Shown piece by piece: positions 17,796-42,281 of a DNA stretch of 42,281 nt (position 1 is its first letter; each line of letters begins with the position of its first letter). The translations under genes and the position numbers were made by a program. A model generated the notes under the pieces. It did not search any database. It worked only from the letters and a program-made list of their open reading frames with translations, and had not been told where the DNA came from. The stretch comes from a virus. The stretch covers positions 1 to 42,281 of IMG/VR virus record IMGVR_UViG_3300022745_000064, one strand, 5' to 3'.

Positions 17796-17836
17796 GAGAC
17801 CCGTGACACCCTCCCACCAGGGGTAGCACGGGTCTC
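17796..17836 (-). terminator. Hairpin after the capsid gene
   Basis: GAGACCCGTG (17796-17805) is the reverse complement of CACGGGTCTC (17827-17836), a perfect 10-bp stem with a 21-base loop, in the gap after the major capsid gene. Such partial terminators are common after phage capsid genes and would raise capsid mRNA relative to the connectors. There is no long T run, so read-through is expected. Confidence 0.6.
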
Positions 17837-24774: not shown

Positions 24775-24816
24775 GCTACCAGGGTGCACGTAATGAGGGG
24801 AGCGCACCCTGGTAGC
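24775..24816 (+). terminator. Terminator-like hairpin
   Basis: GCTACCAGGGTGC (24775-24787) is perfectly complementary to GCACCCTGGTAGC (24804-24816), a 13-bp stem with a 16-base loop starting seven bases after the preceding stop codon. The tail is ACTTAAGT, without a long T run. A GTACCACACC motif follows at 24823-24832. Confidence 0.7.
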
Positions 24817-24996: not shown

Positions 24997-25263
24997 GTGA
25001 GTCAAAGCAGTATAGTGTACACGTCGCTGCTCAGCAGCGCGGACGGTACCTTTCAGATCAGGGCCGATGCTGTGGTGAAGGCGTATCTTGACGAGGCCAT
25101 CGGCATGCTTCTCGACTTGGCTGGGGAGGGCTCTGGTACTACGGCGAGTGCCGTTGAGGCCGTGGTGATTACCCCCTGCCTGGGACAGGGGGGCAGGTGG
25201 CGCTACTGTGAAGCTGAGTGGTGGCATGTGCACACGTACACCGAAGGGTCGATGCCCTGGTAG
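24997..25263 (+). CDS. 88-residue protein, unknown
   Basis: Starts at GTG 24997 with GGGAG 8 bases upstream. The N-terminal half is helical (QIRADAVVKAYLDEAIGMLL). The C-terminal half contains TPCLGQGGRWRYCEAEWWHV, with two Cys and clustered Trp residues. No family recognised. Last gene before the 91-bp duplicated cassette. Confidence 0.68.
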   Translation: MSQSSIVYTSLLSSADGTFQIRADAVVKAYLDEAIGMLLDLAGEGSGTTASAVEAVVITPCLGQGGRWRYCEAEWWHVHTYTEGSMPW

Positions 25264-25279: not shown

Positions 25280-25370
25280 CCCAATCAGCAACACTACGGA
25301 AGCCTCCGTGCACCATGGCTTCCGTAGTGTTATGTCTGTCAGGGAGAGCACAGAACGGAGCGGGACAATG
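25280..25370 (+). repeat. 91-bp terminator/leader cassette, copy 1
   Basis: Identical over all 91 bases to the reverse complement of 34867-34957. It contains a 15-bp perfect hairpin (stem 25290-25304 and 25317-25331, 12-base loop), then a 36-base leader with a purine-rich ribosome site (GGAGCGGGAC), and ends exactly at the ATG of the gene at 25368. The identity stops after that ATG, so the unit copied is terminator plus leader plus start codon. Confidence 0.97.
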
Positions 25371-25565
25371 GCTACCAAGATGAGGCCAAGAGAGCTTGAA
25401 ATCGGCATGCGCATTACGGCCAACCTGTGGGGTCTCTCTAAGACCGAACCCAAGCGCATCGTCCAGGTAGGGCCCTTCCGAAACAGTCGGACTGTTACCG
25501 TGTGGGTTGAGGGCTGGGATGAGCCGGTCGGAATGAGCTGCAACACGGCAGTGTGGGTGCACTGA
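25368..25565 (+). CDS. 65-residue small protein with duplicated leader
   Basis: The start is fixed by the duplicated cassette, which ends at this ATG with GGAGCGGGACA directly upstream. The product resembles a small SH3-like beta barrel (LEIGMRITANLWGLSKTEPK, RIVQVGPFRNSRTVTVWVEG). Its counterpart behind the same leader at 34555 also begins with an SH3-like domain, but the two proteins are not alignable by eye. It is followed by a strong palindromic terminator. Function unknown. Confidence 0.75.
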   Translation: MATKMRPRELEIGMRITANLWGLSKTEPKRIVQVGPFRNSRTVTVWVEGWDEPVGMSCNTAVWVH

Positions 25566-25574
25566 GCCTCTACC

Positions 25575-25612
25575 GTGAGAGCCCCCGGTAGCTAGCTACC
25601 GGGGGCTCTCAC
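25575..25612. terminator. Perfect 38-bp palindrome, bidirectional terminator
   Basis: GTGAGAGCCCCCGGTAGC and its exact reverse complement flank a central TA, so all 38 bases are palindromic. It lies between the rightward operon ending at 25565 and the leftward operon ending at 25738 and can stop transcription from both sides. The bases from 25613 to 25737 hold no ORF that I can support. Confidence 0.8.
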
Positions 25613-25737
25613 GCTGTGTGCTGGTATCGCTATGCTCGGGTGTCGACGTCAGGGCACCGTGTGAGAGTACCCCCTCCACCACAGAAGAGATCTAATACGA
25701 GGGTCACCTAAGCACCTACACCTTCACATTACGCATG

Positions 25738-25956
25738 TCACTCTGTGTCCTCATAGGTGAAGGACACCTTACCAGTGAAGCCACTACGGCGCAGCAGCGT
25801 ACGCACCCGGGCCTCAAGAGTACCCTTGCACGTGTTCTTTACCTCGGTGCCGTTCACCGTTGCTACGTAGTCCCTACGGAGGCCCAACGGCCTGAGGCCG
25901 GCCCACCCTCCTCCTACTAGGACGTAGGGAAGCGAGCGCTTTACAGTGATGGTCAC
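25738..25956 (-). CDS. 72-residue protein, unknown
   Basis: Small basic protein (ITVKRSLPYVLVGGGWAGLR, VKNTCKGTLEARVRTLLRRS, FTGKVSFTYEDTE). The start overlaps the stop of the gene upstream by four bases. No family recognised. Last gene of the leftward small-gene operon. Confidence 0.65.
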   Translation of the reverse strand: MTITVKRSLPYVLVGGGWAGLRPLGLRRDYVATVNGTEVKNTCKGTLEARVRTLLRRSGFTGKVSFTYEDTE

Positions 25957-26147
25957 CTAAGCTCCTCCACCCTCACGTAGCCGAGCTCCTCCAGCCGTGC
26001 GCACTCGCGCTTGGCAGCAGGACGGCCTGCCACCTGGTAGGACATGCCAGCCATGAACTCTCCGCGCGTCTCCGTGCCCTCGAACCTGAAGAACAGCGTG
26101 GTTCCTACCTTGCGCGGTGCGCTCATCGTGTACTCAAGCTGGCTCAT
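25953..26147 (-). CDS. 64-residue protein, unknown
   Basis: ATG 26147 is chosen because AAGGAGG lies 5 bases upstream; the frame is open further but without a ribosome site. The sequence is MSQLEYTMSAPRKVGTTLFF, then GMSYQVAGRPAAKRECARLE with a terminal VRVEEL. It looks like a small beta-sheet domain with one helix. No family recognised. The 87-base gap upstream contains an AGCCTAGG/CCTAGGCT inverted repeat at 26207-26238 that overlaps the upstream stop codon. Confidence 0.7.
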   Translation of the reverse strand: MSQLEYTMSAPRKVGTTLFFRFEGTETRGEFMAGMSYQVAGRPAAKRECARLEELGYVRVEELR

Positions 26148-26234
26148 GGTGCCCTCCTTGTGTGCCCTGTCCACTCAGTATGAGAGGCTGGGGGTGCGAG
26201 CACGTAGAGCCTAGGTTTCAGCTAGGTTGCTATC

Positions 26235-26528
26235 CTAGGCTTGCATCTCGTTCAGCAGCTTCAGTAGTGCCTCAGAGGGCATGCGGTTAAGCCTCTCAAT
26301 GATGGCAACCCGGGTGGCCTCTGCCCGCTCTGCCACCTGTGCGGCGTCGTCCAACACGTTGGTAGCGTGTTCCTGAAGGCCACGCCAAGCATTGCGCATA
26401 GGGATATTCAGAGTAGGGTTGTTGTACACCACTGTGGCAGCAATCCTAAGGTGTGCTACCTCGGTAGTGTTCTCAAAGGTAACCGTCATGATTGCCCGGT
26501 CCTCACTGATGGACTGGTGTATCTTCAC
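26235..26528 (-). CDS. 97-residue helical protein, unknown
   Basis: Begins at GTG 26528 in an overlap with the preceding stop (ATGTGA), with AAGGGAAGG just upstream. The N-terminal third has beta character (IMTVTFENTTEVAHLRIAAT). The rest is predicted helix (LDDAAQVAERAEATRVAIIE, then PSEALLKLLNEMQ). No family recognised. An internal ATG (MTVTFENTTE) is an alternative start. Confidence 0.65.
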   Translation of the reverse strand: MKIHQSISEDRAIMTVTFENTTEVAHLRIAATVVYNNPTLNIPMRNAWRGLQEHATNVLDDAAQVAERAEATRVAIIERLNRMPSEALLKLLNEMQA

Positions 26529-26899
26529 ATTAGCCTTCCCTTGGTAAGCAGGGGTGTGGTAAGCGTGCGCTCAACGCTCCATCCACGGTTAAGGCGTGCA
26601 CGCAGCGTCTCGCAGGAGACACCTACACGGCCTGCCCAGTCAGACATACGCAGCGTCTCACCCTGGTAGCTAATCAGGTGCGCACGGAACCTGTCAGAGC
26701 CGTCTGGGCACGCCCCTAGCTCACAGTTGAGGCACCCACTTCGGGGACGCGTAAGGAACCTGTCGGGTACCACGGTAAAGGAACCACAGGAAGAGCAGTG
26801 CAGCAGAGCATACCAGTAGCTGTCAGGGATGCCCTTACCATGTAGCTGCTCACGGTGGAGCACCGTCACTGCTCCGAACATCTCGCCTACTCTTGCCAT
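26525..26899 (-). CDS. Zinc-ribbon plus HTH DNA-binding protein, paralogue 1
   Basis: 124 residues. The N-terminal domain starts with VGEMFGAVTVL and has two Cys pairs (HCSSCGSFTVV and SGCLNCELG) suitable for zinc. The C-terminal half is a helix-turn-helix (YQGETLRMSDWAGRVGVSCE, then TLRARLNRGWSVERTLTTP). This layout occurs in phage proteins related to the DNA-binding parts of homing endonucleases. No HNH or GIY-YIG nuclease motif is present. It overlaps the second paralogue by 13 bases. Confidence 0.7.
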   Translation of the reverse strand: MARVGEMFGAVTVLHREQLHGKGIPDSYWYALLHCSSCGSFTVVPDRFLTRPRSGCLNCELGACPDGSDRFRAHLISYQGETLRMSDWAGRVGVSCETLRARLNRGWSVERTLTTPLLTKGRLM

Positions 26900-27399
26900 A
26901 GCCCGCGTAGCACCTCACTGTCAGATATGCCCTTACTGACGCGGTGGGTCAGCAGGTCTACGTGTACTCCAAGAATCTGCGCCCACACGGGTAAGGGAAG
27001 AGTCACCCCGTTGCGAGTGAGTGTGGTCCGTTGCCCTGTGACTCTACCTGGAGACACCACAGGGGTACTGAGACTTTCGGCTACGGACCAGCCACGGGAG
27101 AGTCGGTAACGGATGGTCTGCTGAGGGATTGACAACCGGTCCGACCACTCCCGGATGGTCAACGCCTCCCCCTGGTGCTCAAGCCTCCGGGCGTTACGCA
27201 CCATGAGCGCCGCGCCAGAGAGCCCCTTGCCACAGCCACAGGACCGTGAGCGCCCCAAGGTGAGGTCAGATGTACGAACACTTCGGTACGCGCCGCACAC
27301 GCACTCACAGAGGTAGAGGAGCATGCCTCGGTTGGTGCGGCCTGCCTCGCGCACTACGGACCACCGGCCGAAGGTCTGGCCTACGAGGTTACTGCGCAA
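26887..27399 (-). CDS. Zinc-ribbon plus HTH DNA-binding protein, paralogue 2
   Basis: 170 residues built like its neighbour: VGQTFGRWSVVREAG, a Cys cluster (CECVCGAYRSVRTSDL, then SRSCGCGKG), an HTH (HQGEALTIREWSDRLSIPQQ, TIRYRLSRGWSVAESLSTP), and a second HTH-like repeat at the C-terminus (LTRNGVTLPLPVWAQILGVH, RVSKGISDSEVLRGL). The two proteins plainly share ancestry (RGWSVERTLTTP against RGWSVAESLSTP). A DNA-binding regulatory role is likely, but the target is unknown. Confidence 0.72.
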   Translation of the reverse strand: MRSNLVGQTFGRWSVVREAGRTNRGMLLYLCECVCGAYRSVRTSDLTLGRSRSCGCGKGLSGAALMVRNARRLEHQGEALTIREWSDRLSIPQQTIRYRLSRGWSVAESLSTPVVSPGRVTGQRTTLTRNGVTLPLPVWAQILGVHVDLLTHRVSKGISDSEVLRGLWQE

Positions 27400-27653
27400 C
27401 TCAGCCCCTTTGCAGTCAGGTGACAGCTAAGGTATGGCACGCACGCTTCTGTAAGGCCGCGTAGTCGCAACCCCTCCTGTACTCGCATCAGGCGCATGCC
27501 CATGGCATCTTCAGGTGGAAGAGACCCCATCACCCTAGCGATCGTTGGATGGGTTCCCAGCCATGCATAGGATACACACTCCATGGGAAGGGGGAAAACC
27601 TCTCTAAGTACACGAAGTAGCGTGCGCTCCCTGTAGCTCAGCTCAGGCATCAT
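27381..27653 (-). CDS. 90-residue protein, unknown
   Basis: Helical with winged-helix character (LSYRERTLLRVLREVFPLPM, RLMRVQEGLRLRGLTEACVP, LSCHLTAKG). The pattern of a short helical repeat, then R-G-L and a final strand, suggests a small winged-helix domain, but no family is recognised. It overlaps the zinc/HTH paralogue by 19 bases. The ribosome site is weak. Confidence 0.6.
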   Translation of the reverse strand: MMPELSYRERTLLRVLREVFPLPMECVSYAWLGTHPTIARVMGSLPPEDAMGMRLMRVQEGLRLRGLTEACVPYLSCHLTAKGLSCAVTS

Positions 27654-27664
27654 GGGATAAGGGC

Positions 27665-27895
27665 CTAATCCCGGTAAGTGATAGCATGAATATCGGACTC
27701 GGTAGCCGGACGCACCTGAGGACGGATTGCTGAGAGTTCCACACCAACCAGAGTGCGCGCCTTCTGAAGCGCTGTGAGTAGGTCCTCAGCCCGTAGGGAT
27801 AGGGACAGGTGCTCAACTACCCCCCTATCAACCTTAGGTGGTGTGCCCTCGTGCAAGGTCTCAGTGATCGTTACGCGTACGGTGAAGTGACCCAA
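27665..27895 (-). CDS. 76-residue protein, unknown
   Basis: TTG 27895 is the only sensible start, with GGAGG 9 bases upstream spanning the preceding stop codon. The sequence has a beta N-terminus (GHFTVRVTITETLHEG) and a helix (RAEDLLTALQKARTLVGVEL). No family recognised. Five bases separate it from the gene upstream. Confidence 0.6.
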   Translation of the reverse strand: MGHFTVRVTITETLHEGTPPKVDRGVVEHLSLSLRAEDLLTALQKARTLVGVELSAIRPQVRPATESDIHAITYRD

Positions 27896-27900
27896 CTCTC

Positions 27901-28353
27901 TCAGCCTCCGATTACGGTGCCTTCTGCGTACACTACTGTTACAAGCCTACCGTTAGCCACATACTCTTCGGTGACCCGGTCGCTACCGTACATCCTCACG
28001 TAGTCTTCCACAAGGTCTCTCAGGCCATCCATGTTTCGTACCCCACACACATTTGATCTCAACAGCTCACGCAACGTGGCCTTTCCACCAGGCCTATGCT
28101 GGAGGTAGCTGTTGAGCGGATGTGTCTTTCCGTAGGTAATCTCCTTAGGGGTAGGCCAGCTGTCCGGAAGAGTGGTAGTGGGACGCTCTGTGCCTTGTGC
28201 CTCACGCATGATCTCCGTTAGGAGTGCAGCGACGCCGCGTACTGTGCGTATGCTAACCCTGCACCCCGTGTCGGCTACTATCTCGCAGGCTACCTGAAAC
28301 AGATGTTCTGGTAGCTCCTCCATCGTGAGCTTTGGTCCGACGTACTTCTGCAT
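27901..28353 (-). CDS. Protein sharing the primase C-terminal domain
   Basis: 150 residues. Residues about 80-145 (LNSYLQHRPGGKATLRELLR onward, ending ANGRLVTVVYAEG) are clearly homologous to the C-terminus of the prim-pol/DUF3987 protein encoded rightward at 32010-34256, including 44 identical bases. The N-terminal half (LPEHLFQVACEIVADTGCRV, RGVAALLTEIMREAQG) is different and helical. The shared part looks like a winged-helix-type module. The protein may bind the same DNA or partner as the primase, perhaps as a regulator or competitor. That is inference. Confidence 0.75.
   Translation of the reverse strand: MQKYVGPKLTMEELPEHLFQVACEIVADTGCRVSIRTVRGVAALLTEIMREAQGTERPTTTLPDSWPTPKEITYGKTHPLNSYLQHRPGGKATLRELLRSNVCGVRNMDGLRDLVEDYVRMYGSDRVTEEYVANGRLVTVVYAEGTVIGG
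28040..28083 (-). repeat. 44-bp exact inverted repeat with the primase gene
   Basis: Bases 28040-28083 are the exact reverse complement of 34083-34126. Both lie in the shared C-terminal module and encode the same residues (KATLRELLRSNVCGV). Identity falls off sharply on both sides, which suggests recent gene conversion or selection at the DNA level. Confidence 0.95.
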
Positions 28354-28387
28354 GTCAACGTGCTACCTCACTCTGGTGCAGGTGGGT

Positions 28388-28579
28388 CTAGCGGTGGCGC
28401 CGGAGGTGTGTACTCCATCCCGCACAACGAGCGTATCTAGCGAACGTGTTGGCATCCTCCCACGTGTCAAACTCCCATGAGGCCGTCACTCCGCCATCCC
28501 GCTTAGCCATCACCTCCCACTTCGCGCGTGACATTTTCAGGCCTGTCAGGATCCCTAGCATTGCGAACACGAGCCCCAT
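28388..28579 (-). CDS. 63-residue protein, unknown
   Basis: ATG 28579 has AGGAG 10 bases upstream, within the end of the preceding microprotein. Residues 1-15 are hydrophobic (GLVFAMLGILTGL). The remainder is a small alpha/beta domain (AKWEVMAKRDGGVTASWEFD, TWEDANTFARYARCAGWSTH). An internal ATG (MSRAKWEV) would give a soluble 48-residue form, so the hydrophobic lead may be a membrane anchor or may not be translated. Confidence 0.6.
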   Translation of the reverse strand: MGLVFAMLGILTGLKMSRAKWEVMAKRDGGVTASWEFDTWEDANTFARYARCAGWSTHLRRHR

Positions 28580-28580
28580 G

Positions 28581-28667
28581 TCAGCCCCCGCTCCTAGCCG
28601 CGACGATGAGGGCCACCGCCACCATGACGCCGACCGCGATCATGACTGCAACCATCTGTCCGTTCAT
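28581..28667 (-). CDS. 28-residue membrane microprotein
   Basis: ATG 28667 with GGAAGG 6 bases upstream. The product is one hydrophobic helix (MVAVMIAVGVMVAVALIVAA) with a short polar start (MNGQ) and an ARSGG end. The stop lies one base before the next ATG. Single-pass membrane protein of unknown role. Good signals despite its small size. Confidence 0.6.
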   Translation of the reverse strand: MNGQMVAVMIAVGVMVAVALIVAARSGG

Positions 28668-28672
28668 CATGT

Positions 28673-28894
28673 TCACCCTTCCATCTTCCGCACTGACCAC
28701 CGGAAGAGCCCCATCCGCCTCGTGAGCATGTCACGCTCAATGGCGTAGATCATGTTCGTGCTGATTCGGCTCAGGCTCGCGCTTGTGATCCTGGCGTAGT
28801 AGTCCGAGGCCTGCCACGCGCTCAGGTCGAGCGCTTTTTCAAACTCTGCCAGGTCAAGTACCGCCCCGAGACCTGCGTTGAACATCTTGGTCAT
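28673..28894 (-). CDS. 73-residue helical protein, unknown
   Basis: GGAG lies 7 bases before ATG 28894, one base after the preceding stop. The sequence is helical (LGAVLDLAEFEKALDLSAWQ, NMIYAIERDMLTRRMGLFRW). No family recognised. Part of the tightly packed leftward small-gene operon. Confidence 0.7.
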   Translation of the reverse strand: MTKMFNAGLGAVLDLAEFEKALDLSAWQASDYYARITSASLSRISTNMIYAIERDMLTRRMGLFRWSVRKMEG

Positions 28895-28895
28895 G

Positions 28896-29135
28896 TCAGT
28901 ACTCCAATCCTTCGGGGAGACTTCCGTAGGTGGACTTCCACCCCTGCCGTGCCCGCACGCTGCCTTCCAAGTGGGCCTGGAGCGTCGGCGTGAGTACGGG
29001 GATGCTCATGTCGAGCGTGGCCGGCACCTGCCTATTGTGGGCGGCCCTGGCCATGTGGGTGGCGGTGGACGTCTGTATTGCCTGTGCCAGCAGCTTGGCT
29101 GCTTCGTCCGGCAACGGCCGCGTGAACTGTGCCAT
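28896..29135 (-). CDS. 79-residue protein, unknown
   Basis: GGGAGG lies 5 bases before the ATG. The sequence is helical at the N-terminus (RPLPDEAAKLLAQAIQTSTA) with a Pro-rich centre (VPATLDMSIPVLTPT). No family recognised. Bases 29136-29209 upstream hold no ORF; they could carry a leftward promoter, but no clear hexamers are seen. Confidence 0.68.
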   Translation of the reverse strand: MAQFTRPLPDEAAKLLAQAIQTSTATHMARAAHNRQVPATLDMSIPVLTPTLQAHLEGSVRARQGWKSTYGSLPEGLEY

Positions 29136-29209
29136 GTCCGCCTCCCTCGTTGGTGTGCCTTAAGCTTTTTCGAGTAGAGTTGCCGCTAGGGTGTGTGGTA
29201 GGTAGCGGA

Positions 29210-29284
29210 TCAGTTGTGGTGCTTAAGCCACTGTGACAGGGTGAGGCAGAAACCTCCGAAGAGGAACAGGACCAAAGATACCAT
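29210..29284 (-). CDS. 24-residue membrane microprotein
   Basis: The ATG at 29284 overlaps the preceding stop (TGATG), with GGGGTGAG just upstream. The peptide is one hydrophobic helix (MVSLVLFLFGGFCLTLSQWL) ending KHHN. It is the smallest gene proposed here. Support is the coupled start and the membrane-like composition only. Confidence 0.45.
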   Translation of the reverse strand: MVSLVLFLFGGFCLTLSQWLKHHN

Positions 29285-29574
29285 CACTCACCCCGTAGCT
29301 GTGACAGCCGAGACAGTAGCTCAGATGCCTCTTTAGGCGTAATTGCGTCCATAGCCTCTTTGAGTCTGTGGTTAGCGTCAAGACTGGCCCTTCGCTCCTC
29401 TTCCTGTTTGATAGCACGCACGCATAGCTGACCTAGCGTGAAGTCCAAGTCAGGGTCATCGGTAAGACGTGATGGGATAGCGTCCAACAGCGCTATCAGC
29501 CCTTCCCTGCTCATTACGAGGGTAGTGAACTCAGGGTCGTCTGCGGATACCCTGAACGGCAGTATATGTCTCAT
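29284..29574 (-). CDS. 96-residue helical protein, unknown
   Basis: ATG 29574 overlaps the thioredoxin-like stop codon, with GGGAG about 6 bases upstream; the longer frame back to 29700 runs through that gene and is not used. The N-terminus has ILPFRVSADDPEFTTLVMSR, then a long charged helix (VRAIKQEEERRASLDANHRL, KEAMDAITPKEASELLSRLS). No family recognised. Confidence 0.68.
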   Translation of the reverse strand: MRHILPFRVSADDPEFTTLVMSREGLIALLDAIPSRLTDDPDLDFTLGQLCVRAIKQEEERRASLDANHRLKEAMDAITPKEASELLSRLSQLRGE

Positions 29575-29879
29575 CATGCCTCCCGAAACGCGAGTGCCAC
29601 ACCAGCAGCAGTCTGTGCGTGTTGTCCGCCGATGACGAAATGAGCCTCGCCGTCCACCAGGTGGACGAACGAGGGGATGGAGTATAGCATCTTGCCCCAC
29701 GCTTCGGGGGTTTCACCGATGTCGACCACGGTGAAGACTCCGGTCCCAGGGGCGGTTTGGATCTCTGCCCTGGCACGCTGCTTTGCAGCCGGGCACTGAC
29801 GGCACCACTCAGCCGTTACGAGTGCCACTACTCTGCCACTGTGCAGCAGTGGCTGCGTGAAAGGAACTTCAGTGTACAC
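29574..29879 (-). CDS. Thioredoxin-like protein
   Basis: About 101 residues from GTG 29879, which has AAAGGAGG 4 bases upstream; the ATG at 29930 lacks a site. The thioredoxin fold is indicated by VVALVTAEWCRQCPAAKQRA (CxxC redox motif WCRQC), then TGVFTVVDIGETPEAWGKML and the cis-proline YSIPSFVHLVDGEAHFV. It may keep phage or host reductases active or act as a polymerase cofactor; neither is shown. First gene of its group, after about 400 non-coding bases. Confidence 0.78.
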   Translation of the reverse strand: MYTEVPFTQPLLHSGRVVALVTAEWCRQCPAAKQRARAEIQTAPGTGVFTVVDIGETPEAWGKMLYSIPSFVHLVDGEAHFVIGGQHAQTAAGVALAFREA

Positions 29880-30278
29880 GTGCCCTCCTTTGCCATGGCC
29901 GATGGGTTTGGTTGGCCTTCCCTCCCCCATCGGTTCCGGATGTTCGGTTGAACGCGTTTCCCCCGCACCCTCCGGATCACAGCAACTTACTCAGCATCCC
30001 GGTTCACAATACCCCCCGTGGGGCGTCAACTTGCCGGTTTTCGCGTGTCTGCGTACGCGTAAAGAGTCGCCGGTAGTCCCCGTCGCCTTCCATTCTACAC
30101 CGCATGCGCTGTTGCTCTCATGTTCACGTCAAGCGTGCGTCCGGGCGCGCAAGTAGGCGCTAACCTAGCGGATTCGCTGTATCCTGCCACGATGTAGATG
30201 AGCTGTTAAACCCCGGTAGTCACTCTAGATTTGTATCAGGCTACGCTAGCCCTCGTGCTGCAACCAGTGTGCACCCCG
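29880..30278. other. Non-coding stretch upstream of the thioredoxin-like gene
   Basis: No supportable ORF. It lies between the small terminase candidate and the thioredoxin-like gene. A TAGAAT at 30095-30100 (minus strand) would make a good -10 element, but no matching -35 is evident. An ACCCCG/CGGGGT hairpin at 30273-30291 overlaps the end of the gene at 30279 and may be a weak terminator. Confidence 0.5.
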
Positions 30279-30776
30279 CTAGACACGGGGTCTGTCATCC
30301 GACCGGGCGTTCTCAAGGTCTTTCAGTAGGGCTTGAAGCGCTACGTCTGCATCCGTTACCTCATCGGGACTCACGGACTCCCTTGCCTTAGCCTGCCTCG
30401 CTGCGATGTCCAGCAGCTTACCGCGCAACTCTATAGCCCTGATGGCCACACGCACGGCCTGAGAGTCGGCCATCTTGATCACGGGGTCCAACGCGAGCAT
30501 GAGCCTCTCAAGACGTGCTACGTCAAGGAGAACGGATTCCTTGAGCTTCTCTTCCCGGGTGGCCTCTACGTAGTAGTCAAAGGCTGCCTGTGCCTCGGCA
30601 TCGGTGACACCGCAGAAGTCGGGAAGCTCTCTCAGCTTCTTCAGGGCCGACCGGAAGCTATACCCGATCACGCGCATGTCCCAAAGCAGGGAGCCTACCC
30701 GCTCCCGTTGGAGCTCAACGGCGTTGTTGAGTCCCCGCACGGAGTGGGGGCTGCTCCACAGCTCTAGCTCATGCAT
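30279..30776 (-). CDS. Probable terminase small subunit
   Basis: 165 residues. An N-terminal HTH-like region (VGSLLWDMRVIGYSFRSALK with ELPDFCGVTDAEAQAAFDYY) is followed by a pattern typical of small terminase subunits: LLDVARLERLMLALDPVIKM, then a helix with VRVAIRAIELRGKLLDIAAR. The acidic C-terminus is suited to binding the large subunit. It lies 7 kb from the large subunit and is transcribed in the same direction. No ribosome site is seen before ATG 30776, and a GTACCACACC motif sits 11 bases upstream of the start. Confidence 0.68.
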   Translation of the reverse strand: MHELELWSSPHSVRGLNNAVELQRERVGSLLWDMRVIGYSFRSALKKLRELPDFCGVTDAEAQAAFDYYVEATREEKLKESVLLDVARLERLMLALDPVIKMADSQAVRVAIRAIELRGKLLDIAARQAKARESVSPDEVTDADVALQALLKDLENARSDDRPRV

Positions 30777-31445
30777 ACGCGTGAGGGTACCACACCCACC
30801 AGGAGTTGCCTACCCGCTGAAACGCGACATTTTTTCGAGTGTCCTAAGTGGCAGTGTCAAGGGCTGTGGCCAGAGTCACGCATACGCTCGAAGATATGTC
30901 GGGATTCGCATAGCGTTTCGTACACGTCGGATCTAATTGGTGTCTGTTTTATCCCACTCCACAGTGGTACCGTCGGAGTTGATCTTGTATACCGTCAGAC
31001 ACTGTCGGGTGTCGGGCGTAGATATGTATAACTGGGTGCCCAAAAATGCTTCAGAAAACACTGATATGTCCACTCAAACGAGGGCACTTTTCGGAGTACC
31101 CCCACGTAGTTGATGCCTGTCTATGCCTCGGCTCTACGTGCTCTCTTCTCTCCCATACACTGATATACATAACAGTACAAAACGACCCCAGTAATATGAT
31201 TCTAGGGAAGCAAAGCGACATTCAGCGCACTGTCCTATGAGGATCTCTAACTAGCCCGACGGTTCCGACACTGTTTTGAAGATCAACTAGGCCGTCCAAA
31301 ATGAACGGCGTAGTAAAACCACGTACACGCAACCCGGCAGAGTAGGACATATTGGGCAGCTGTACAGAGAAAGTTACACGCACCTTACACGCGTGGCAAC
31401 CTTGTGCTATGCTGCCGCCACTGTGTCATCGGCTAGGAGGTAGGG
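30777..31445. other. 669-bp divergent intergenic control region with repeated elements
   Basis: No convincing ORF. The stretch is visibly richer in A and T than the rest. Two 28-base elements (30824-30851 and 31215-31242) share GCGACATT and TGTCCTA at identical spacing, 19 of 28 bases in all. A third, looser relative is near 31078-31105 (CACTTTTCGGAGTACC). ATATGTC/ATATGTA/ATATACA words recur at about 30893, 31022, 31062 and 31161, and TTACACGC is directly repeated at 31375 and 31385. Together with its place between the divergent terminase-small-subunit and primase transcripts, this suggests operators, promoters or a replication origin. Confidence 0.6.
31385..31413 (+). promoter_or_regulatory. 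Candidate promoter of the primase operon
   Basis: TTACAC (31385-31390) and TATGCT (31408-31413) are 17 bases apart, about 30 bases before the first gene of the operon. The TTACACGC word is directly repeated 10 bases upstream, which could form an operator overlapping the -35 element. Confidence 0.45.
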
Positions 31446-31961
31446 GTGAGCTACAGGCTGAGAGACCACCTAGGTAGGCCACGGTGGTACCGGGACACGG
31501 ACAACCCGCGAGGTAGGCACGCAGCGGCGCACGCGGTGTCCTTCTGGCTCGGGGGAGGGAGCGGTGTGGTACGCCCGATGCACGTTCAGCGCGTGCTGAG
31601 GGCAGGTGGGTTCAACACCACAGCGTTTGCCCTAGGGGACTTGGCTGCCGATGGGGTTCTGCGCGTTGAAGGTCGGGGGAAGATCAGGATCCTCGGAGTG
31701 CCTAAGTGCCCTAAGTGGGAAGGGCGGGGGGATGACGTGTCCTGCCCCTTGTTCGTCGCTCCGGAGCCATACATGCTGTGTGCACTTCGGGATGCGGCTA
31801 AAGCCCTAGCGGTATTGCAGTGCGGGGTAGGGCACACCGTTGAGCTAACACACGCGTTGTTTGACATGTTTCCCGAGTTTCGGCATATGGCGCGTGATGA
31901 GGACTACGTGGGGGTACGCGAGTTTGACTTCACGGGGCCGGGTGTTGACCCCCGGTTCTAA
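31446..31961 (+). CDS. Possible winged-helix protein, unknown
   Basis: 171 residues from GTG 31446 with AGGAGG 5 bases upstream. The central part (MHVQRVLRAGGFNTTAFALG, DLAADGVLRVEGRGKIRILG) reads like a winged helix ending in a beta wing. An N-terminal basic segment (RPRWYRDTDNPRGRHAAAHA) and a C-terminal domain (ALAVLQCGVGHTVELTHALF) flank it. First gene of the rightward primase operon, so an initiator or regulator role is plausible, but no family is recognised. Confidence 0.7.
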   Translation: MSYRLRDHLGRPRWYRDTDNPRGRHAAAHAVSFWLGGGSGVVRPMHVQRVLRAGGFNTTAFALGDLAADGVLRVEGRGKIRILGVPKCPKWEGRGDDVSCPLFVAPEPYMLCALRDAAKALAVLQCGVGHTVELTHALFDMFPEFRHMARDEDYVGVREFDFTGPGVDPRF

Positions 31962-32009
31962 GCGTGGTACTGTTTCGCGGCTCAGCCTAATAGGAGTGAG
32001 GGTTACTAC

Positions 32010-34256
32010 GTGATAGGGCAGGACTACCTAACCCGAGTGTTCGGCCCTGGGCCGGTACAGAGGGTTGCCCTAGCGCGAGAGTTTCAGACTGGGGTGAGTG
32101 CTAAGGGAGAGCCCGTATGGGACTTTCAGGAGCGCATATTTCGGTGGCCCGCACAGCAGGATGAGATGCACGCGTGGGTAACCGGGGTGCCTGATTGCAA
32201 CGTGTATGTGTGTCCCCGGCCGTTGGCTATTCCGCTGCGGAAGAAAGGGCAGACGGAAGATCACGGGGTAGCGTGGGCGGACGTTGATTACCAGGGGGTA
32301 CCTACGGAGAAACGGGATACGGTTCGGAAGCTGATTGCTAAACTCGCGTGGTTTACCGTTGAGAGCGGTAGTGAGCGGGTGGAGGGGTTCCCCAACGTTC
32401 ACGTGTATGTGAAGTTGGATCGGGCTGTTGACGCGCGCACCGTCTTTAAGCTCAACGATGGGCTGAGGGTGTTGTTGCACGCGGACAGCAAGCACACGGA
32501 CAACTCACTGCTGAGGCTGCCGGGGACGGTGAACCAGAAGACCGGCCGTCGGGTGGTGCTGCGGCCGGGGCGTGGAGGGGCACGGAGCGTTGACGCCTGG
32601 CTGGCTCACCCTGTGCTTGGGTCTGGACGCTGGCCTGAGGACGCTGTGGGGGATGGAGGGGGCGCGTGGGTACGGGTGGAGGTGCCTGCGCTCCCAGGGC
32701 CGCTCAGGATGGCACTCAGGATGGACAGTGATGAGGCCCTGGATCGGTATGGTGCCCGATTTAAGGCGGTCCTAGCAGTAACGAGAGATTTGGCTAAGTT
32801 TGGGCTGAGTAGGGACCAGATTCACTCTGCGATGGACGGATTCAGTCCAGCGGTGGATAAGTGTGCTGAAGAGCACGGTGGGTACGATCTGCACGCGGAC
32901 GTGGATTGGGCGCTTGGTCCTGTAGAGCCGAAGAGTCCCACACCCCCTCAGCCTGTTGAGGACACGCCGATAGGTGCCTACCCCCTGGCCTTCATGCCAC
33001 AGCTTGTGAGAGACGCTGTGAAGGCCGGAGGGTCGCTGCCTATGGAGGGGCTGGCAGCAGCGGCCCTGAGCGTGCTTGGGGGGCTGTGCCTGAGGAGCAC
33101 GTACCGGTTCAGGGGCGGAGGGCGGTGCTCTGACCGTAAGGGTATGGGGCTGTGGATACCTATCGTTGGGGATCCGGGTAGTGGTAAGACACCATGTATC
33201 GACATGATGTGGCGACCGGTGCTCAATCAGGAGGGGCTGAGACTGGACGCGTACCTAGCTGCCATGGAGGAGTGGGAGGCAGGGGGGAGGAAAGGTACCC
33301 AGCCTAAGGATAAGAGCCTGGTGCTTGGTGACCTGACCTCTGAAGCGTTGATGTCCCGGTTGGGGGAGCGTGCGCAGAGGGTTATCAAGGTTGACGAGAT
33401 TGCGTCGCTGTTCACCTCGTTAGGGCAGTACAAACAGGTGAGGGGTAACGACGCTGACCGGCTGCTATCCATGTGGGGTAACGCTGGATTCCGGGTAGAT
33501 AGGAAGAATGGTGCGCCGTTCCGGGTGGCCGATCCCGCGGTTGGAGTCATCGGCACCGTGCAGTATGAGCGGGTGCGCGCTATCGCTGAGCTGAACAGTG
33601 GTATGCAGGCCCGTTGGCTGCCCCACATGGTGGAGCCACGGGGGGAGAAGGCTACTGAGTACGGGAGCAGCCTCCCCGCGTGGGAGGATAGGGTGGTTGA
33701 GCTCTACATGGATGAGAGCAAGAGGACCAACGAGTGGGTTATTGACACTGACTCGAAGCTTTGGGTGAGTGCTGAGGAGCGGTGGAGGAAGGTGCGGGAC
33801 ACCCACCGTGGGGTAAGCACTGCCGTCAGCTTCATAGCTAAGGCGGATATCCACGCTGCTAGGGTGGCGGTATCTTTCGCTGAGGGGGACCTAGGCACCG
33901 GAGGTGTGGTACCGGAGGACAACATGCTGGCAGCAGTGCGCTTGGTTGACTACTGCATGAGCCTGTGGACGGAGGGCGCGCTACCAGATACCTCGGAGGT
34001 GCTTACCTCACGGTATTCGGATAAACCCTTCCTAGCACAGGTGGACAACCTCAACAGGCACTTGAGCAGACAGCCTGACGGTAAGGCCACGTTGCGTGAG
34101 CTGTTGAGATCAAATGTGTGTGGGGTGCGTGAGATGGACTCCCTGCGTAAGCTTGTGGAGGTATATGGGAAGGTACACGGGGAGTCGTTGGTAAGGGAGG
34201 AAAAGGCTGCCAACGGGAGGGTAGTAACTGTGGTGTACGCCAGGGTCGCTAAGTGA
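32010..34256 (+). CDS. Prim-pol/DUF3987 primase-helicase-like replication protein
   Basis: 748 residues from GTG 32010 (GAGGG 7 bases upstream). Residues about 60-190 carry archaeo-eukaryotic primase motifs: GVAWADVDYQG (D91-V-D93 metal site), NVHVYVKL (the sxH-type His131), and DNSLLRLPGTVNQKTGRRV. The central part (about 330-640) matches DUF3987 with an ATPase core: Walker A IVGDPGSGKTP, Walker B RVIKVDEIASLF, and a sensor-like VIGTVQY. The last 65 residues are a separate module that recurs in two other proteins of this genome. It probably makes primers and may unwind DNA. Followed by a small gene encoding a relative of its own C-terminal module. Confidence 0.88.
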   Translation: MIGQDYLTRVFGPGPVQRVALAREFQTGVSAKGEPVWDFQERIFRWPAQQDEMHAWVTGVPDCNVYVCPRPLAIPLRKKGQTEDHGVAWADVDYQGVPTEKRDTVRKLIAKLAWFTVESGSERVEGFPNVHVYVKLDRAVDARTVFKLNDGLRVLLHADSKHTDNSLLRLPGTVNQKTGRRVVLRPGRGGARSVDAWLAHPVLGSGRWPEDAVGDGGGAWVRVEVPALPGPLRMALRMDSDEALDRYGARFKAVLAVTRDLAKFGLSRDQIHSAMDGFSPAVDKCAEEHGGYDLHADVDWALGPVEPKSPTPPQPVEDTPIGAYPLAFMPQLVRDAVKAGGSLPMEGLAAAALSVLGGLCLRSTYRFRGGGRCSDRKGMGLWIPIVGDPGSGKTPCIDMMWRPVLNQEGLRLDAYLAAMEEWEAGGRKGTQPKDKSLVLGDLTSEALMSRLGERAQRVIKVDEIASLFTSLGQYKQVRGNDADRLLSMWGNAGFRVDRKNGAPFRVADPAVGVIGTVQYERVRAIAELNSGMQARWLPHMVEPRGEKATEYGSSLPAWEDRVVELYMDESKRTNEWVIDTDSKLWVSAEERWRKVRDTHRGVSTAVSFIAKADIHAARVAVSFAEGDLGTGGVVPEDNMLAAVRLVDYCMSLWTEGALPDTSEVLTSRYSDKPFLAQVDNLNRHLSRQPDGKATLRELLRSNVCGVREMDSLRKLVEVYGKVHGESLVREEKAANGRVVTVVYARVAK
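34083..34126 (+). repeat. 44-bp exact inverted repeat, primase copy
   Basis: Exact reverse complement of 28040-28083, within the C-terminal module of the primase. See the entry at 28040. Confidence 0.95.
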
Positions 34257-34267
34257 GAGGGATGGGA

Positions 34268-34495
34268 ATGAAGATCACTCCGTACAACCTGTATCGGTGG
34301 CTTGAGCAGCAGCCTAGGAAGCGGGCCACGCGTAGGGAAATCACGCTAGAGCTGATGAAGTGGGGCTTCCGTGGTACTGATGACCTGCTCATCGCGTTTG
34401 TCAGGCAGTATGGCTCTGACGCATGGGATGGAGAGTACTACCTCCACCCCGCTACGATGTCCCGTGGGACGAACGAGTCTCGGTACTTCTGCTAA
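34268..34495 (+). CDS. Stand-alone relative of the primase C-terminal module
   Basis: 75 residues from ATG 34268 (GAGAGGG 6 bases upstream). The layout YNLYRWLEQQPRKRATRREI, then GFRGTDDLLIAFVRQYGSDA, resembles NLNRHLSRQPDGKATLRELL and the following region in the primase tail, and shares YGSD with the protein at 27901. It is therefore a diverged third copy of the module, encoded directly behind the primase gene. Last gene of the operon before a strong terminator. Confidence 0.65.
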   Translation: MKITPYNLYRWLEQQPRKRATRREITLELMKWGFRGTDDLLIAFVRQYGSDAWDGEYYLHPATMSRGTNESRYFC

Positions 34496-34504
34496 ATGCA
34501 CAGC

Positions 34505-34545
34505 GAGAGAGCCCCGGTTACCGTGTTGAGGTCCGGGGCTCTCTC
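34505..34545. terminator. Terminator of the primase operon
   Basis: GAGAGAGCCCCGG (34505-34517) pairs perfectly with CCGGGGCTCTCTC (34533-34545), a 13-bp stem with a 15-base loop. It stands between convergent genes and may work in both directions. Its arm resembles the palindrome at 25575 (GAGAGCCCC). Confidence 0.8.
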
Positions 34546-34554
34546 GTGTATGGG

Positions 34555-34869
34555 TCAGTAGTACATGTTCAGGCCACCCTGCCAGGCGTAGCTCTCATGA
34601 ACGCTCATTGGGGCCATGGTAGGAGGGGTGTCAGAGAGGGATTCGGTAGAGGCAATCTCAGCATCGATCATGGCCTGCGTGATCACGTAGCCATCGTCAA
34701 GGATGCTAACTACCTCGGTGACCTGTTCTTCGGTGTAGAGGTTGCAGTCAAGGATACCTTCGATGAAGAACCCCTTGTAGGAACCGAAGTGGCTCACGGT
34801 GCCGACCTTGCCGAATGTCGCTTTGGTGGTGTCAGTAACCTGGACCTTGGTGCCTACTGTGATCGACAT
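34555..34869 (-). CDS. 104-residue SH3-like protein behind the duplicated leader
   Basis: The start is fixed by the 91-bp cassette, which ends at this ATG. Residues 1-55 (VGTKVQVTDTTKATFGKVGT, VSHFGSYKGFFIEGILD) look like a small KOW/SH3-type barrel. The C-terminus is acidic and flexible (EIASTESLSDTPPTMAPMSV). No family recognised. It is unlike the protein that follows the other cassette copy beyond the general barrel-like start. Confidence 0.72.
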   Translation of the reverse strand: MSITVGTKVQVTDTTKATFGKVGTVSHFGSYKGFFIEGILDCNLYTEEQVTEVVSILDDGYVITQAMIDAEIASTESLSDTPPTMAPMSVHESYAWQGGLNMYY

Positions 34870-34957
34870 TGTCCCGCTCCGTTCTGTGCTCTCCCTGACA
34901 GACATAACACTACGGAAGCCATGGTGCACGGAGGCTTCCGTAGTGTTGCTGATTGGG
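34867..34957 (-). repeat. 91-bp terminator/leader cassette, copy 2
   Basis: Exact inverted copy of 25280-25370, again placed between an upstream gene (ending at 35028) and the ATG of the next gene. The two copies lie about 9.6 kb apart in opposite orientation, so each feeds a gene on a different strand. Confidence 0.97.
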
Positions 34958-35027: not shown

Positions 35028-35231
35028 TTACTCGCCCCCCGTAGGAACTTCGAAGTGGAGGGGTCCATCGGAGTGGCGTACCCGAACCACAGGGTACCGC
35101 TCACGGTTGTAGTTAAAGATCCGTTGAGCTAGGAGCTTAGCTTCAGGGAATAGGTGAAAGGAGAGCAGTACGGTTTCCTTTCCGGTCTTATCCATCCCTA
35201 GGACGTTGAAGCGGTCGGACAGTGTTGGCAT
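35028..35231 (-). CDS. 67-residue protein, unknown
   Basis: AAGGGG lies 4 bases before the ATG. The sequence is FNVLGMDKTGKETVLLSFHL, then FPEAKLLAQRIFNYNRERYP, with a final VRVRHSDGPLHFEVP: a small alpha/beta domain. No family recognised. A CCCACGTGGG palindrome at 34963-34972 lies between this gene and the cassette. Confidence 0.68.
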   Translation of the reverse strand: MPTLSDRFNVLGMDKTGKETVLLSFHLFPEAKLLAQRIFNYNRERYPVVRVRHSDGPLHFEVPTGGE

Positions 35232-35665: not shown

Positions 35666-36286
35666 CTAGTTGGTGGTATAGAACTCCCGTGCTGCGGACT
35701 GAAGGGCCGACCAGTAGGCGGCACTACTAGACGACTGATAGGCCTCCGCTAGGGCAGCCCAGTCAGTGTCGAGCGTGAAACTCTGGCATCCGCAGAACAC
35801 CGTGCCGTCGGGAAGGGCTACCAGCAGCCCCCATTCTGTACGGATGGAGAACAGCAGGCTGCTCAGACGGACATCGTACAGGTTGGCACCGCGCAGGTTG
35901 GCGTTGATCAGGTTGGCACCGCGCAGGTCAGCGTTGCGCAGGTAGGCGTCGCTCAGGTTGGCACCGTGCAGGTCAGCGTTGCGCAGGTCAGCGTTGCGCA
36001 GGTAGGCGTCGCGCAGGTGGGCACCGTGCAGGTTGGCGCCGTGCAGGTCAGCGTCGCGCAGGTTGGCACCGTTCAGGTAGGCGCCGCACAGGTCAGCGTT
36101 ACTCAGGTTGGCACCGTGCAGGTTGGCACCGCGCAGGTTGGCACCGTTCAGGTAGGCGCCGCACAGGTCAGCGTTACTCAGGTTGGCGCCGTGCAGGTCA
36201 GCGTCGCGCAGGTTGGCGTTGCGCAGGTTGGCATCGTGCAGGTTGGCAGACGGCTTGAGTCTGTGGTTAAGGACTACTCGTAGCAT
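35666..36286 (-). CDS. Pentapeptide-repeat protein (25 repeats)
   Basis: 206 residues. After MLRVVLNHRLKPS come 25 uninterrupted five-residue units of the A(N/D/Y)LXX type (ANLHD ANLRN ... ANLYD), which fold into a right-handed quadrilateral beta helix. A non-repeat C-terminal domain of about 70 residues follows (LFSIRTEWGLLVALPDGTVF, TDWAALAEAYQ). A 75-bp block is tandemly duplicated inside the repeats (around 36067-36141 and 36142-36216), showing growth by slippage. AAGGAG lies 6 bases before the ATG. Some repeat proteins of this type (MfpA, Qnr) mimic DNA and bind gyrase; whether this one does is unknown. Confidence 0.88.
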   Translation of the reverse strand: MLRVVLNHRLKPSANLHDANLRNANLRDADLHGANLSNADLCGAYLNGANLRGANLHGANLSNADLCGAYLNGANLRDADLHGANLHGAHLRDAYLRNADLRNADLHGANLSDAYLRNADLRGANLINANLRGANLYDVRLSSLLFSIRTEWGLLVALPDGTVFCGCQSFTLDTDWAALAEAYQSSSSAAYWSALQSAAREFYTTN

Positions 36287-39481: not shown

Positions 39482-39525
39482 ACCAGCCCGGTACGCGTGG
39501 TGAGGATACCGCGTACCGGGCTGGT
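39482..39525 (-). terminator. Terminator after the Lsr2-like gene
   Basis: ACCAGCCCGGTACGC (39482-39496) is perfectly complementary to GCGTACCGGGCTGGT (39511-39525), a 15-bp stem. It ends the long leftward replication operon; the nuclease gene beyond it would depend on read-through or its own promoter. Confidence 0.75.
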
Positions 39526-41266: not shown

Positions 41267-42281
41267 CAATCCTCCAGCGGATTGGCGCTAGGGTTGTAGT
41301 ACTGGAGTGGGTCTGCCTCAGTGTAGTTCATGGCTCTGACAGTTCTGGCCTGTGCGGAGTCCGGGCCGGCTGCTAGCTCTGTAGTACAAAGGTTGCGAAA
41401 TGAGCACCAATCGCACGAACGGCTAAAGTTCCTACGCAGGCATCCAGGGTCATAATCCTCAGAGTCGATCATGTCACGGGTCTTGAGGGCCGCACCTATC
41501 ACGCGGGTCATCAGCTCAGGATCCTTATCAAGGGAGTCCCTACGAAAGAATGCTGAGCGCTGAATCTTACCAGGTGCGTAGCGGTCGTTCAAGAGCGGGC
41601 GCAAGCGCTCTGTGTAGTCTTCAGGGTTGAGCCCATACTCCTTGAGGGCTAACCACGTGGTCGGGTAATCCGTGTCGCATGCCGCTTTGGACAGCAACCC
41701 ATTCTTGAGCTGAGACGGGATTGATGGCGCCTTTGCTCTGATGTAGTTCCACACGAACCGGGACACCTCAACCCCATTTTCCTGAGCACACCAGATGTAT
41801 AGCACGGAGGCAGGGTCAGTAAGGCGGAATTCGTTGTTGGGAAGGGCTACATTCGTCTTATGGTCCCCTACGAACATCCCGAATTCGTCCTCAGCCAGGA
41901 TGTCAACTCTGCCCCTGTAGGTACCATCCCCGTCTGGCCACTCACACTCTAGAGTGAGTTCCACACCATGCACAGTCCACCCATGCCAGGGGTTGCTAGC
42001 CGAGGCTCCGTAGTGCCAAAGGTACGAGCGCATGAGTCGGCGCATGGTGTCTGGGAGGGGCCCTAGCGCTTCCTGCTCTTCCTCCATAAGCCCGTTGTAG
42101 GCCAGGGTGAGCTCAGCGTGTTTGGCGGCCCAACCGGTGCCTCCGGGAGTGTAGTGCGCCTCTAATAGGTGGTGGAACCAGGTACCCCGTTTGAGCGCTG
42201 ACTCAGACTTCGTGATCCGGCGAGGCTTGAGTCTGAGCACGTACCCGTAGTAGTAGCTGGCAGGGCACTGATTGAACGCAC
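41266..42281 (-). CDS. Cas4/RecB-type PD-(D/E)XK nuclease with Fe-S cluster, main part (starts at 201)
   Basis: Body of the gene that begins at base 201 across the circular join; the full protein has 355 residues. The nuclease core shows GRVDILAED (D144), GDHKT (D157, K159), and an earlier RGTWFHHLLEAHY. The C-terminus has Cys 298, 307, 310 and 316 in the order C-x8-C-x2-C-x5-C; with Cys 23 this matches the 4Fe-4S layout of Cas4 and AddB nucleases. Such enzymes resect DNA ends, producing the single strands that the downstream Sak4-like and SSB-like proteins would use. Reading the contig as linear cuts off its first 31 residues. Confidence 0.9.
   Translation of the reverse strand, partial: AFNQCPASYYYGYVLRLKPRRITKSESALKRGTWFHHLLEAHYTPGGTGWAAKHAELTLAYNGLMEEEQEALGPLPDTMRRLMRSYLWHYGASASNPWHGWTVHGVELTLECEWPDGDGTYRGRVDILAEDEFGMFVGDHKTNVALPNNEFRLTDPASVLYIWCAQENGVEVSRFVWNYIRAKAPSIPSQLKNGLLSKAACDTDYPTTWLALKEYGLNPEDYTERLRPLLNDRYAPGKIQRSAFFRRDSLDKDPELMTRVIGAALKTRDMIDSEDYDPGCLRRNFSRSCDWCSFRNLCTTELAAGPDSAQARTVRAMNYTEADPLQYYNPSANPLED
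42139..42281. repeat. Terminal overlap, right copy
   Basis: Direct repeat of 7-149; see that entry. Joining through it restores an intact nuclease reading frame. Confidence 0.93.

Follow-up and report, generated by a model that had tools for sequence, protein, structure and literature searches.

Two identical, inverted copies of a 91-bp hairpin-leader element precede two small genes in an actinophage-like genome

The window analysed here, the whole 42,281-base stretch of IMG/VR virus record IMGVR_UViG_3300022745_000064, contains two identical 91-bp segments in inverted orientation, each of which ends with the start codon of a small gene (A or B). The likeliest interpretation is a gene-control leader in two copies, belonging to a kind known from related viruses, that recent intragenomic copying has kept identical. 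Our best explanation, a two-member start-associated leader cassette that was either copied recently or homogenised between inverted arms, has in our judgement about an even chance of being right. The two copies of the element are located as follows:

25280-25370, + strand: element copy E1, 91 bp, identical to E2
34867-34957, - strand: element copy E2, 91 bp, identical to E1

Comparison of E1 on the + strand with the reverse complement of 34867-34957 gave 91 matches in 91 bases, which confirms the inverted identity reported in the earlier note, and the first base beyond the block is mismatched at both ends. With 0 differences in 91 positions the 95% upper bound on divergence is 3.2%, and the computed expectation for an exact 91-mer pair arising by chance is about 1e-45. 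The 3' limit of the identity is indeed the ATG of genes A and B, which both copies share and from which they diverge at the next base (ATGgct versus ATGtcg). The other edge had been placed just before a strong hairpin; the hairpin does lie inside the block, but the edge is actually found 10 nt ahead of it. A scan for exact repeats of at least 22 bases, leaving out tandem arrays and the contig end overlap, detected only two pairs in the window, of 91 and 44 bases, E1/E2 being the longest exact repeat of the genome when tandem and terminal repeats are excluded. In nine comparison phages (stretches of 21-48 kb each) the longest exact repeat was at most 35 bases. The copy number of the 91-bp element in this genome is two, and no further copy was present in the viral, phage and plasmid collections searched. 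Within this genome, no alignment to diverged leader copies rose above the shuffled background, and a degenerate leader family was dropped on these grounds. Another viral contig (L009) shares a single exact 18-base stretch, which we consider a chance match; it has no leader context and its opposite strand can encode CPAPFC.

Read toward the downstream gene, the element consists of 10 bases, a hairpin, 36 nt ending in CGGAGCGGGACA and the ATG, and the sequence ahead of the start codon is GAACGGAGCGGGACA-ATG. Each hairpin lies within the gap between two co-directional genes.

25290-25331, + strand: E1 hairpin, perfect 15-bp stem, 12-nt loop, -25.7 kcal/mol
34906-34947, - strand: E2 hairpin, perfect 15-bp stem, 12-nt loop, -25.7 kcal/mol
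25332-25367, + strand: E1 leader, 36 nt, GGAG Shine-Dalgarno-like site about 7 nt from the ATG
34870-34905, - strand: E2 leader, 36 nt, GGAG Shine-Dalgarno-like site about 7 nt from the ATG
25368-25565, + strand: gene A, 65 aa, weak coding score, no relatives found
34555-34869, - strand: gene B, 104 aa, gene model starting at the ATG of the element, no convincing relatives
24997-25263, + strand: gene upstream of E1, 88 aa, stop 16 nt before E1
35028-35231, - strand: gene upstream of E2, 67 aa, stop 70 nt before E2

An Rfam covariance-model search of the window returned two tRNAs only, with no match at the element. A pseudoknot between the loop (CUCCGU) and the Shine-Dalgarno region (ACGGAG) would be possible, yet 11% of shuffled loops equal it and we do not claim it. 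Genes A and B are on opposite strands and face each other. The statement that they are not obviously homologous agrees with our results, as their BLOSUM62 local alignment was no better than that of shuffled sequences and neither gene had a match in Pfam, in PHROG or among isolate phages. Distant homology of A and B was likewise unsupported by alignment, and AlphaFold models of the two (pLDDT 54 and 34) were unusable. Gene B also gave a 46% match to a longer Planctomycetota protein (L011), but this came from a seeded pattern spanning 39 residues, lacked Pfam support and was not used.

Downstream, each of the genes A and B converges on a strong palindromic hairpin (T1 or T2), and further hairpins are located in intercistronic positions elsewhere in the genome:

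25574-25613, no strand: T1 palindrome, 18-bp stem (GAGAGCCCCCGG...), between convergent gene A and the leftward operon, likely a two-way terminator
34504-34546, no strand: T2 hairpin, same kind as T1, between convergent gene 34268-34495 and gene B
24775-24816, + strand: intercistronic hairpin of the E1/E2 design with another sequence, before the 36-aa ORF 24883
39482-39525, - strand: intercistronic hairpin of the E1/E2 design (16-bp stem, 12-nt loop) with another sequence, before the nuclease gene 39458-39141
17796-17836, - strand: intercistronic hairpin about 21 nt ahead of gene 17774-17346

The last three sites share the order gene, hairpin, RBS, gene between co-directional genes, with sequences unlike E1/E2 and, in two of the three, a predicted 12-nt loop. 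Strong hairpins are concentrated in gaps, which hold 7 of 10 of them and make up 10.5% of the genome (binomial P ~1e-5). Because hairpins of the same design with other sequences sit between genes, a hairpin followed by a start is a habit of this phage; gene-hairpin-RBS-gene is its general layout, and the only unusual part is the exact duplication, two of five being identical. Hairpins of the GAGAGCCCC type, like T1 and T2, are also present in gaps of Streptomyces phage Zuko.

With regard to function, we infer the action of the hairpin, the co-regulation of A and B, and conversion as the cause of the identity. Standing between an upstream co-directional gene and the RBS of a small accessory gene, the 15-bp hairpin would probably terminate, weaken or process the upstream transcript or, as DNA, might serve as a dyad operator, and the 36-nt leader would provide the RBS and thereby place A and B under the same control. 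One copy may have been derived recently from the other, or the pair may have been homogenised, by recombination or conversion between the inverted arms. The recurrent position before RBSs favours control of the downstream gene or its separation from the upstream transcript. The proposal of a modular control unit, comprising a terminator for the gene before and a leader for the gene after, holds in part: movement as a unit, or conversion, is supported because the boundary falls exactly at the ATG and a separate conversion-like tract of 44 bp connects the same inverted arms. However, the hairpin departs from a consensus terminator, as the strong stem is combined with a 12-nt loop and just 4 T in the 10 nt past the stem, and the element is absent from a consensus terminator scan. 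A U-tract is often missing from actinophage terminators. Pattern scans found no SigA promoter in the element, where TAGTGT is -10-like and no TTGAC stands at the right upstream distance. A promoter within the element was therefore rejected; its -10-like TAGTGTT resembles Zuko promoters, but has no -35. In the divergent region, TACTGTTATGTATATCAG at 31160-31177 (- strand) is off the TAGTGTTATGTCTGTCAG of the element at 3 of 18 positions; it resembles the right arm of the Adephagia ESAS and could be a leftward promoter.

The second exact pair provides an independent view of copying in this genome:

28040-28083, - strand: 44-bp perfect tract, copy 1, in gene 27901-28353
34083-34126, + strand: 44-bp perfect tract, copy 2, in the primase-helicase C-terminal domain (gene 32010-34256)

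This pair is inverted as well and links the same two arms as E1/E2. The primase-helicase C-terminal domain (32010-34256, + strand) and gene 27901-28353 (- strand) are diverged paralogues in which 14 codons in a row are identical at all positions, and outside the 44-bp tract identical codons are used at 11 of the 28 amino-acid-identical positions (permutation p = 3e-5 for all codons and 0.0016 for amino-acid-identical codons). Judged by its sequence, the tract looks like a conversion tract, and selection on the DNA itself could also yield it. Since the tract looks conversion-like, the 91-bp pair, too, may plausibly owe its identity to recent copying from one arm to the other. Among the genes of the phage are those for a Sak4-like annealing protein and an exonuclease. 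Three copies of the small domain involved are present, one C-terminal in the DUF3987 primase-helicase (34050-34239, + strand), one as the stand-alone next gene (34268-34495, + strand) and one at the C-terminus of the inverted gene 27901-28353 (- strand) 6 kb away, and the 44-bp perfect tract is common to two of the three copies.

The 42,281-base record has an exact end overlap of 126 bases (24-149 = 42156-42281) and, because of this overlap, is a circular and probably complete phage genome. The terminal repeat of the contig is this end overlap and is unrelated to E1/E2; when 1-149 is set against 42133-42281, mismatches occur at positions 2, 6 and 23, reflecting strain variation or contig-end errors. 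The genome is actinophage-like and encodes terminase, portal, tape measure, endolysin, DNA polymerase I, helicase and an Lsr2-like protein. Its nearest isolates are Streptomyces, Microbacterium and Gordonia phages with about 42-47% identity (terminase or polymerase), the nearest viral contig shows 48% identity, and searches with terminase, polymerase, primase, A and B revealed no relative above about 48% (terminase). The region 35666-36286 (- strand) encodes a pentapeptide-repeat protein with a 15-bp tandem repeat, whose DNA is about 78% identical to Salmonella phage pentapeptide genes, probably due to repeat composition. At 26525-27399 (- strand), two adjoining genes match parts of HNH-endonuclease families (phrog_374 and phrog_3377), the nuclease core possibly being missing.

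Start-associated leaders with inverted repeats have been published for several actinophage clusters (PMC3203893, PMC7302621, PMC11373665), and the published cassettes are of comparable size and follow the order inverted repeat, RBS motif, ATG (PMC3203893, PMC11373665). The SAS and ESAS of cluster K were described in PMC3203893 and their EF and EG analogues in PMC7302621, and Adephagia ESAS units combine a putative promoter with a 15-17 bp inverted repeat (PMC11373665). We file the present element as one that works like a start-associated cassette and not as a member of the SAS/ESAS family, because its architecture fits and its motif, copy number and promoter do not. In SAS/ESAS, an inverted repeat of about 15-17 bp with a 12-14 bp spacer (17 bp with a 12-14 bp spacer in Adephagia) precedes an RBS motif and the start codon; here, 15-bp arms with a 12-nt spacer end 36 nt before the ATG. 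As in the present pair, cluster K units are placed ahead of genes from unrelated families; those genes are a selected, nonstructural set, and a few lie on the opposite strand. However, cluster K genomes carry 11-19 SAS copies of one 13-bp motif, varying imperfect repeats and a SigA promoter inside, whereas the present element occurs in two identical copies with another motif, a perfect stem and no -35 box. The 13-bp SAS motif, GGGATAGGAGCCC, was absent here within a few nt of start codons, and a SigA-like -35/-10 promoter as in ESAS was not found at the element. Similarly, in Microbacterium phages of cluster EF a conserved motif is found at the RBS position together with an element upstream of it, and those of cluster EG have an 18-bp inverted repeat 14-22 bp ahead of starts; but their sequences differ from ours, each genome has 8-12 copies, and the repeat in EG is short with a 2-bp centre. 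Zuko, the closest phage by DNA polymerase, has repeated control units before small genes and a -10 region, TAGTGTT, that resembles the right stem arm of the element; in contrast, its intercistronic units are promoters with TTGAC -35 boxes, are 60-79% alike mutually and lack a long stem. Zuko (L012) carries at 32-47 kb about ten SigA-like promoters (TTGAC-N17/18-TA[AG][AT]GT) before leftward small genes and also GGATACCCGGGTATCC-type palindromes. T7 RNase III sites are intercistronic processing/terminator hairpins of phages, and the likeness of our element to this type is one of layout, with a hairpin just 5' of an RBS in a polycistronic transcript.

The leader-cassette reading has to contend with the small number of copies, an element found in no relative, the missing U-tract and SigA -35 box, and the weak coding score of gene A, and a passive recent duplication without shared regulation would give the same picture. 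Such an ordinary event, in which illegitimate or annealing-type recombination copied a short leader whose sequence plays no shared regulatory part, seems to us unlikely, though deserving serious weight: it accounts for two copies only and for their absence from relatives, and the exchange tract inside coding sequence shows that copying occurs here without regulation, but it leaves unexplained the boundary exactly at an ATG with a good RBS and the hairpin-start layout that recurs elsewhere in the genome. Another view takes the 91 bp for the shared 5' coding end of A and B, comparable to invertible genes with variable tails, as both copies are stop-free in the frame of the genes, which also has an ATG 36 nt upstream (MSVRESTERSGT-M...). 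We think this very improbable: by rough estimate a 30-codon frame is open by chance in about 1/4 to 1/3 of cases, the upstream ATG lies at the foot of the hairpin without a Shine-Dalgarno, and the downstream ATG, where the identity stops, does have one. An assembly artefact, introducing one copy or the orientation of the intervening segment, would be more surprising still. Inverted repeats can mislead assemblers and the record comes from a collection of virus contigs, but the 126-bp exact end overlap points to assembly words longer than 91, with which the repeat would have been resolved directly, and unique flanks and a rightly spaced downstream ORF accompany each copy. A transposon with terminal inverted repeats was rejected, the flanks GTAGTAGGTA and GGCTACCCAC having no common direct repeat and no transposase occurring among the scanned genes.

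The inverted orientation and 91-bp identity also suit a model in which E1 and E2 are crossover sites between which 25371-34866 (9.5 kb) flips, so that A and B swap behind two outer operons with every leader intact. The segment is self-contained, with its divergent promoter region at about 30.8-31.45 kb and, on each side, an operon that runs outward to T1 or T2, the Sak4-like recombinase and exonuclease are at hand, and A and B lie outside the likely terminators T1 and T2, facing inward; a crossover within the 91 bp would thus swap the two genes and break nothing. However, the scanned segment genes include no site-specific invertase and no record with the other orientation was found in searches that near-identical records may escape, and for these reasons inversion is a minority reading that we regard as rather improbable. 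How primase and helicase are oriented to each other differs from one relative to another (Zuko, Troje) and is uninformative on this point. That the leaders form a built-in recombination switch, with the 9.5-kb inversion swapping two small accessory genes behind two operons, is a doubtful extension with a slim chance of being correct; if true, the exact ATG boundary keeps either arrangement functional.

To return to the preferred leader cassette, knowledge of start-associated leaders in actinophages goes back to 2011, without proof of their function. With the same leader standing ahead of two unrelated genes in a single genome, nature offers a clean test of whether expression is set by the leader alone. 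The pair also exemplifies the intragenomic copying of gene-boundary sequences in phage, which can later serve as recombination sites.
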